45,371 nt of DNA, taken from Alphaproteobacteria bacterium (GTDB taxonomy: Bacteria; Pseudomonadota; Alphaproteobacteria; Caulobacterales; Aquidulcibacteraceae). This document shows positions 3 through 1,214 of this stretch, piece by piece. Below the pieces are notes generated by a model. It made no database searches, was not told where the DNA came from, and was given only the letters and a program-made list of their open reading frames with translations. The DNA is taken from positions 1 to 45,371 of the forward strand of contig JAGWZH010000015.1 of assembly GCA_018971945.1 (NCBI GenBank), given 5' to 3'. The position numbers and the translations under genes are program-made. How positions within the stretch are numbered: position 1 is the first letter of the stretch; each line of letters starts with the position of its first letter.

Positions 3-1214
3 ATGGATGCTTCGCGCCGAAGCGCCATCTTCCTGCATCCGGACGGGATGGGGGCCAATGCCTGGACGCTCGCGCGGCTCGCAGGCGTTGGGCCAGACGG
101 GCGGCTGGCATGGGACTCGCTGCCGGCGACGGCCGTCTATGTTGGGCCCATGCTCGACAGCGTGACCGCCACCTCGAACGGGGGGGCCACCACCCATGCC
201 TATGGGGTTCGGGCGGAGACGGCCAGCTACGGCATGATCGGCGCTCGGCCTATCGAGAGAGCGGCGTCGGGGTATCGTGGATCGCTCATGATCCAGGCGC
301 GGGATTCGGGGAAGGCGATCGGAATCGTCAATTCGTCCTCGGTGACCGAACCTGGAACGGGGGCCTTCCTGGCGCAAGTGGCTGACCGGAACGACGATCA
401 GGGGATCGCTGCGCAGATCCTGGCGAGCGGAGCGGACGTGATCCTGGGCGGGGGAGAAACCTTCTTTCTCCCAAGGGGAACTCAGGGACGGCATGGGCCG
501 GGGAGCCGGACTGACGGGCGGAACCTGATCGAAGAGGCGCGCGGGTTGGGATACCTGGTGGCGTTCACCGCGGAGGAATTGTCCGCCCTGCCCCAAGGCG
601 CGCGGCGGGTTCTGGGTCTTTTTGCAGCGGAGGAGACCTTCAACGAAGGGTCCGAAGAGCACCTCGCTCAGCGGGGGCTGCCGGTGTTTCAGCCCCAAGC
701 GCCGCGGTTCGATGCCATGATCGAGGCGGCGATCGCCATTCTGGAACAGGATCCCGACGGGTTTTTCCTGGTGGGGAACGAGGAGGCCAGCGACAATCTC
801 GCTGGAGACAATAATGCTCAAGCCCTTATTGAGGCAGGGCTTGGGGCGGACCGGGCGATCAATGCGGCGATGATTGCCGCTGCGCGAAACCCGCTTTTGA
901 CGATTATCGTGGCGTCCGACAGCGATTGCGGCGGGGCGCAGGCCAGTGGCGATGACGCGGTGGCGGGCGCCCGGTCGCCCGCACGGGAAGAAAACGGCGC
1001 GCCGCAGGATGGGGACGGCCGCGTTCCGTTCCTGGCGGCGCCGGATGCGCGCGGCATGCGGCACCCGTTCACGGTGCGTTGGGCTTCTGGCGGGGACAAT
1101 TCGGGGGGAATTGTGGCGCGGGGCTATGGACCCGGCGCGCGGTTGATCCAGGGGACCATCGATTCAACAGGCGTTTACGACGCCCTTCATCTGGGGCTGT
1201 TCGGCCCGCCATGA
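3..1214 (+). CDS. Alkaline phosphatase superfamily protein, 5'-truncated by window edge, atypical metal site
   Basis: Resembles the PhoA-type alkaline phosphatase family (phosphomonoester hydrolysis, normally periplasmic). Visible landmarks are the first metal-ligand motif (PDGMG, Asp14), the nucleophile region (TSNGGATTHAYGV, probable Ser58), a region matching the E-xxxx-D-xxx-H block (NEEASDNLAGDNN, residues 259-271), the DH-E/D-TGG block (ASDSDCGG, Asp306) and the final ligand block (GGDNSGG, residues 363-369). By hand alignment the canonical histidines are replaced: H331 by Asp269, H370 by Ser307, H412 by Asn366, and the ligand D327 by Asn265. The family call is secure, but phosphatase activity with the usual two zinc ions is not. 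The first ATG is at base 3 and no signal peptide is seen, so the true start probably lies upstream of the window. The 3' end overlaps the convergent glycosyltransferase gene by 28 bp. Confidence 0.75.
   Translation: MDASRRSAIFLHPDGMGANAWTLARLAGVGPDGRLAWDSLPATAVYVGPMLDSVTATSNGGATTHAYGVRAETASYGMIGARPIERAASGYRGSLMIQARDSGKAIGIVNSSSVTEPGTGAFLAQVADRNDDQGIAAQILASGADVILGGGETFFLPRGTQGRHGPGSRTDGRNLIEEARGLGYLVAFTAEELSALPQGARRVLGLFAAEETFNEGSEEHLAQRGLPVFQPQAPRFDAMIEAAIAILEQDPDGFFLVGNEEASDNLAGDNNAQALIEAGLGADRAINAAMIAAARNPLLTIIVASDSDCGGAQASGDDAVAGARSPAREENGAPQDGDGRVPFLAAPDARGMRHPFTVRWASGGDNSGGIVARGYGPGARLIQGTIDSTGVYDALHLGLFGPP

Follow-up and report, generated by a model that had tools for sequence, protein, structure and literature searches.

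The window, a stretch of 45,371 nt that makes up the whole of contig G000:C33, carries at its start a gene for a PhoA-family alkaline phosphatase homologue in which all three zinc-binding histidines are replaced. This gene belongs to one clade with a fixed histidine-less site, an assignment that is well supported. Judged from its residues, the clade is a real and widespread variant of the PhoA family that would use hard metal ions. No description of it was found in the open PMC literature, which is a weak absence as most subscription journals lie outside that search.

The open reading frame at positions 3–1214 (+ strand) encodes 403 aa up to the stop. The frame is already open at the first bases of the contig, so the 5' end of the gene is probably cut off, and since the contig starts there no promoter or signal peptide is visible. 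The first 22 bases of the gene have no second copy in the rest of its genome assembly. In a Pfam scan at E up to 1, PF00245 (Alk_phosphatase) is the sole family found (108.5 bits, E 5e-31, curated cut-off 24.4). The reading frame is the only PF00245 match within its genome. An AlphaFold model built from an input alignment of 59 rows has a mean pLDDT of 96.4. Comparison of this model with solved PhoA-type alkaline phosphatases by VIA-align gives Z values of 41.8–46.7 among the 50 rows shown, e.g., Z 46.3 and rmsd 2.5 with 357 aligned residues for 1kh7_A. The predicted fold is that of PhoA. Downstream of the gene, on the opposite strand, are a family 9 glycosyltransferase gene and a gene for a LeuA-type synthase, with no evident link to the phosphatase gene. 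The phosphatase frame and the convergent glycosyltransferase 9 frame share 28 bases at their ends (positions 1187–1214).

Active-site positions were mapped by a MAFFT alignment of 105 rows and by a profile–profile comparison with hhalign (E 1.9e-64 over 369 columns); the two are concordant at the ligand positions. Residue numbers are those of mature E. coli PhoA (L079). The ligand list given in PMC3145672 has D327, H331 and H412 at M1, D51, S102, D369 and H370 at M2, and D51, T155 and E322 at the Mg site. The features are as follows, with counts that refer to the 93 aligned clade rows described below.

3–1214, + strand: histidine-less PhoA-fold (PF00245) gene, 403 aa, 5' end probably beyond the contig
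36–38, + strand: His12, clade-specific, two residues ahead of the metal Asp (PhoA I49); 89/93 rows, putative role
42–44, + strand: Asp14 = PhoA D51, M2/M3 ligand, kept (MAFFT and hhalign)
171–176, + strand: Thr57-Ser58 = PhoA D101-S102, Ser58 the expected nucleophile; Ser in 90/93 rows, 3 gaps
195–197, + strand: His65, clade-specific (PhoA W109); 90/93 rows, putative role
348–356, + strand: Glu116-Pro117-Gly118 = PhoA D153-A154-T155, third metal site; Glu 92/93, Pro 92/93, Gly 93/93
387–389, + strand: Arg129 = PhoA R166, phosphate-binding Arg, kept; 92/93 rows
777–779, + strand: Asn259 = PhoA E322 (Mg ligand); Glu in 90/93 rows, Asn in the window, L002 and L003
792–794, + strand: Asp264 = PhoA D327 (M1 ligand), kept; 93/93 rows, hhalign
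804–806, + strand: Gly268 = PhoA H331 (M1 ligand), replaced; Asn 89/93, Gly 4/93 rows
918–923, + strand: Asp306-Ser307 = PhoA D369-H370 (M2 ligands), Asp kept and His replaced; Asp 93/93, Ser 93/93
1095–1097, + strand: Asp365 = PhoA H412 (M1 ligand), replaced; Asp in 93/93 rows, hhalign

Both alignments thus show the three zinc histidines replaced (H331 by G268, H370 by S307 and H412 by D365). Set against the ligand list of PMC3145672, the map shows that the aspartates D51, D327 and D369 stay as D14, D264 and D306, while every nitrogen ligand at M1 and M2 is gone. The Ser102 nucleophile and Arg166 are present as Ser58 and Arg129, and in the AlphaFold model a helix starts at Ser58. The third-site ligands T155 and E322 are absent, with G118 and N259 in their places. 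The first-pass annotation had described an alkaline phosphatase homologue with replaced metal-site histidines, and the Pfam match, the model fold and the two alignments agree with it. Its retained Asp14, Ser58 and Asp306 (D51, S102 and D369) and its replacement of H370 by Ser307 are also reproduced by MAFFT and hhalign. The hand alignment was one residue off at the other two histidines: H331 had been placed at Asp269 and H412 at Asn366, and they fall at Gly268 and Asp365. D327, which had been read as lost to Asn265, is retained as Asp264; Asn265 corresponds to K328. Glu260 had been considered a kept ligand, but E322 aligns with Asn259. Changes not in that earlier list are D101 to T57, D153 to E116, T155 to G118 and K328 to N265, together with the retention of R166.

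An artefact, whether from misaligned columns, gene decay or a sequencing error confined to a single contig, would be suspected from the position of the gene at a contig end and from the shift of one residue at several sites of the hand alignment. This explanation is extremely improbable. Misalignment is ruled out by the agreement of MAFFT and hhalign, the frame is open with a third-position GC of 0.75, and identical residues occur in isolate genomes, e.g., Hydrococcus, Mastigocoleus and Lyngbya. A single-contig error is already contradicted by the window's N259 and G268, both of which recur in L002 and L003.

Relatives were collected by a scan of GTDB species genomes, which found 189, and the best 80 of these, representing 76 loci, were kept. 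The best 80 of 189 span Alphaproteobacteria, a Silanimonas MAG, Planctomycetes, KSB1, Calditrichota, Ignavibacteria, Verrucomicrobia, Nitrospirota, Bipolaricaulota and many Cyanobacteria. From 121 domain hits, 93 clade rows (62 sequences, the window included) and 12 canonical rows were obtained after hits covering fewer than 300 profile positions had been dropped; split hits were joined into a single row for a few loci. The clade rows contain near-copies, e.g., L005/L006 and L012/L014. The groups were divided by score and site (clade at 349.8 bits or more, canonical at 202.6 bits or less), so a value such as 93/93 describes the chosen group. The checks on this grouping are a tree with the site masked and a reading of residues at 38 loci from cyanobacterial searches.

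Within the clade rows, Ser at 370, Asp at 412, Asp at 327 and 369, and Gly at 155 are invariant, and D51, S102, R166, D327 and D369 are near-invariant as a set. Position 331 is Asn except for the Gly of four rows, which are the window, L002, L003 and L004. All three zinc histidines are present in 12/12 canonical rows. The window has the clade signature (Ser at 370, Asp at 412, Asn or Gly at 331, Gly at 155) as S307, D365, G268 and G118. In an IQ-TREE phylogeny built from 59 rows after masking of 14 site columns, one branch with support of 100/100 divides 39 histidine-less from 20 canonical rows, and the window, L002, L003 and L004 form a group within the histidine-less clade. L004, L087 and L104 are apparently a single gene. 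The 38 loci from the cyanobacterial searches comprise 22 with the histidine-less set and 16 with the full canonical set; three of them are repeats (L127/L159, L128/L157 and L130/L162), and by ORF length several seem to repeat members of the 93 rows (e.g., L013/L129, L039/L150, L035/L152, L023/L160, L032/L154 and L018/L126). Two sequences, L057 and L058, are histidine-less yet have Asp at 101, and branch close to the clade's base in the midpoint-rooted drawing of the masked tree; this is perhaps an early state of the change.

Values of dN/dS are 0.02–0.09 in nine close pairs and 0.17–0.23 in one, for ten hand-picked pairs drawn from relatives other than the window; purifying selection acts in the window's relatives. 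Recent decay is ruled out by the masked tree and these values. The first-pass view that the changes are not random decay is borne out further by the same pattern in sequences 38–61% identical to the window. Its proposal of a subfamily also stands, as a clade sharing the site was recovered in the alignment, the masked tree and the cyanobacterial loci. Close homologues with all three histidines were sought and none was found; the nearest relatives, L002–L004, also have the histidine-less site. Taken together, what was first observed is partly confirmed and how it was interpreted is partly supported.

Some genomes with a clade member hold a further PF00245 protein. L097, a 445 aa frame in the Verrucomicrobial genome G590, scores 155.7 bits with PF00245, above the family cut-off. 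Nearly all its aligned site residues are replaced, the Ser nucleophile and the Arg included, and it is the sole other departure seen; it is likely a true pseudo-phosphatase by its residues. The same genome holds a member of the histidine-less clade (L019/L117). L123, in the Silanimonas genome G580 that also holds L002, is a second, divergent histidine-less member in a 624-aa frame with long inserts. L096, in the KSB1 genome G585, is a tandem canonical PF00245 protein of 1254 aa, and this genome also has a histidine-less member.

In the window's own class, the clade profile finds matches in 7/385 genomes at E 1e-30, with clade strength in two (G000 and G247); the other five matches (L082–L086) are canonical when their residues are read. 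In the window's order, 94/200 genomes match at 1e-20, again with clade strength in two (G000 and G418). The remaining 92 have E values of 2e-39 to 5e-22; residues were read in five of the eight that were fetched, and all five are canonical. A sample of 242 cyanobacterial genomes gives 59 matches at 1e-20. One of these is canonical (G678) and the other 58 have E values of 1e-183 to 4e-48, a few being fragments; the figure of 58 rests on profile score, because residues were read only at fetched loci. Any PF00245 match is present in 91 of the 242 genomes, 89 of them above the cut-off, and the 58 are among the 91. Some cyanobacterial genomes have both types, e.g., G733 and G804. Every PF00245 match lies in a single ORF in 12/18 genomes with a clade member. 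The sole PF00245 matches of an Okeania genome are in one histidine-less tandem ORF; Okeania is of the same family (Microcoleaceae) as Lyngbya, which is a row of the masked tree. The clade is old, widespread and conserved, and is common in cyanobacteria. Carriage by mobile elements was also considered. Phage cargo was rejected since no phage match was found, and plasmid cargo since all 177 plasmid records are below 60% identity, with 24.7–33.7% for the 30 listed.

Several cyanobacterial members are fused to other phosphate-related domains. GDPD and phytase-like domains are present in 7/11 cyanobacterial ORFs scanned (L011, L013, L017, L036, L039, L050 and L051), a set picked largely because of length, with frames taken from one stop to the next. 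PhoX domains occur in L046 and L051, RTX repeats are found in L039 and L040, and L011 has additional nucleotidase and endo/exonuclease-phosphatase domains; L012 and L032 have PF00245 and no other domains. Five of these ORFs (L011, L036, L039, L050 and L051) are single polypeptides of approximately 1900–2700 aa that combine the histidine-less phosphatase with GDPD and phytase-like domains, and PhoX, RTX or nucleotidase parts are present in some of them. Adjacent to the Okeania tandem gene, L040:1643-5512 encodes a GDPD protein that has RTX repeats and matches PhoX weakly.

Upstream regions were scored with a Pho-box matrix from 26 published sites (PMC1906773). Pho boxes at p<0.05 are found in 17/32 hand-picked upstream regions of cyanobacterial clade genes, compared with 13/113 control ORFs of the same loci (Fisher p 2e-6; 200 shuffles per target and 100 per control); the p-values are optimistic because the genes are related. 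At the strictest level the counts are 7/32 and 7/113. A second run with a different shuffle gave 18/32 for a period of 11, 1–5/32 for periods of 8–10 and 12–14, and 2/32 for a reversed matrix. On the opposite strand, 5/32 have a box at p<0.05, four of these at p<0.01. Scoring of ten non-cyanobacterial loci against a consensus revealed no PhoB boxes (smallest p 0.25). In the part of the neighbours scanned for L002–L005, L009, L062, L065 and G247 there are no phosphate genes; a LysR regulator, a TonB receptor, proline dehydrogenase, a subtilase, an amidase, a channel and others were seen. Single-domain relatives have signal-peptide-like starts, as judged by eye. The fusions, the Pho boxes and the location indicated by these starts and by the RTX tails together suggest phosphate scavenging, and clade members in cyanobacteria probably have this role. 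The lack of PhoB boxes and of phosphate genes at the non-cyanobacterial loci covered counts against it. For the window's own lineage a phosphate link would follow by homology only.

We infer that the window protein is a secreted serine-nucleophile hydrolase of PhoA fold that runs on hard divalent ions (Mg2+, Ca2+ or Mn2+) and not on Zn2+. As a whole this is moderately probable, and its catalysis, metal, substrate, secretion and likeness in function to its relatives are all predicted from residues and homology. The protein would be secreted or periplasmic. Because Ser58 and Arg129 are kept, the PhoA phosphoserine route in two steps would apply: Ser58 would attack the phosphate ester, a phosphoserine intermediate would form, and water would then free the phosphate. 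Mg2+, Ca2+ or Mn2+ would stand in for Zn2+ at the metal sites, hard ions being proposed because the ligand set holds no nitrogen. The Mg or Ca suggested in the first-pass annotation as an alternative metal would fit this all-oxygen set. The third metal site is rebuilt with E116 and G118, and the outcome would be a zinc-free release of phosphate from organic phosphate. We take His135 of TAB5 alkaline phosphatase to be at the position of PhoA D153. The PDB title of a TAB5 His135Glu structure gives Mg in the M3 site, a parallel for the D153 to Glu change. The window's subclade may bind metal weakly or differently, because further potential ligands are lost there (N259 and G268).

A zinc enzyme would be retained if the new histidines H12 and H65, or the remaining aspartates, held Zn2+. 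The two histidines are specific to the clade and H12 is only two residues before the metal ligand Asp14, so that they could reach a metal, which leaves room for a nitrogen ligand; moreover, PDB titles (1hjk, 1hqa and 1ali) include crystallised E. coli PhoA variants that carry one substitution, at H331 or H412. However, neither H12 nor H65 aligns to a metal-ligand position and each known nitrogen-ligand position is replaced, which makes retention of zinc unlikely. Action on another ester, such as phosphodiesters, phosphonates or sulfate esters, in place of phosphomonoesters is quite unlikely as well. It would account for remodeling at many positions of the site, and an oxygen-ligand Ca site is present in sulfatases of the same superfamily, but Arg166, which contacts phosphate in PhoA, is retained in nearly every row. 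The fusions and Pho boxes also indicate phosphate, though not the type of ester. A non-catalytic protein that binds phosphate, metal or matrix would be compatible with the loss of three zinc ligands, with the RTX repeats and giant fusions of some members, and with the existence of a probably dead relative, L097, whose whole site is lost. Such a protein would have no need for near-invariant Ser102 and Arg166, and dN/dS is low; a non-catalytic role is very unlikely, and the binding protein raised in the first-pass annotation is disfavored by the same two residues.

The hydrolase with hard metal ions that is favored here can be compared with known systems. The clade resembles PhoA-type enzymes (E. 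coli PhoA, Vibrio AP and human placental AP) in fold, Ser nucleophile, Arg166, D51, D327 and D369, and differs from them in that H331, H370, H412 and T155 are replaced, D101 is usually Thr or Ser, and D153 is Glu. A PDB sequence search with the clade profile recovered no clade member or close relative; its top hit is a canonical Vibrio AP at 135.8 bits. Type I sulfatases, which belong to the alkaline phosphatase superfamily, have an oxygen-ligand Ca site, a formylglycine nucleophile and one metal. The clade would be like them in its predicted oxygen-ligand site and would differ in the other two properties. In Sphingomonas SPAP (PhoK), PMC3145672 describes zinc His ligands that are kept, a Thr nucleophile, and a lack of the third metal site and of Arg166. 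SPAP and the clade are each a variant class within one superfamily, and the clade reverses SPAP at both the His ligands and the nucleophile, with His lost and Ser kept.

The non-zinc phosphate scavenging proposed for the clade resembles that of the iron-calcium phosphatases PhoX and Psip1. These share a common beta-propeller according to PMC11098088, unlike the PhoA fold of the histidine-less clade. The atypical PhoA of cyanobacteria and algae (PhoAaty) is similar to the clade in being called PhoA in cyanobacteria and in being tied to phosphate starvation. It is described as having no sequence similarity to classical PhoA (PMC11098088) or as a distant relative in which a PhoA domain cannot be recognised (PMC4548154). 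Identity of the clade with published PhoAaty was rejected since the clade is a clear PF00245 match; the two are set apart by the descriptions in those papers alone. Three further reports concern cyanobacterial phosphatases. In Halothece, omission of Mg and Zn changed phosphatase activity little, which the authors credit to PhoD (PMC6713934). Nostoc all2843, termed an alkaline phosphatase, rises strongly under phosphate starvation (PMC7564538). PhoA typically needs Mg and Zn, and the metals of the Trichodesmium PhoA (Tery_3467) are given as unconfirmed (PMC12206446).

PhoA is the textbook two-zinc enzyme, and its zinc requirement enters accounts of phosphatase choice where metals are scarce. 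It is nearly an even chance that a class with the PhoA fold has left zinc, by a switch on one branch to an all-oxygen Mg, Ca or Mn site, and that this class is present in 58 of the 91 PF00245-bearing cyanobacterial genomes, as counted from profile scores. In that case, the rule that PhoA needs zinc, which is used for reading the co-limitation of phosphorus, iron and zinc in aquatic cyanobacteria, would break for many proteins now called PhoA. The clade would then represent a natural experiment in which the metal of a well-studied enzyme was changed and its nucleophile retained.
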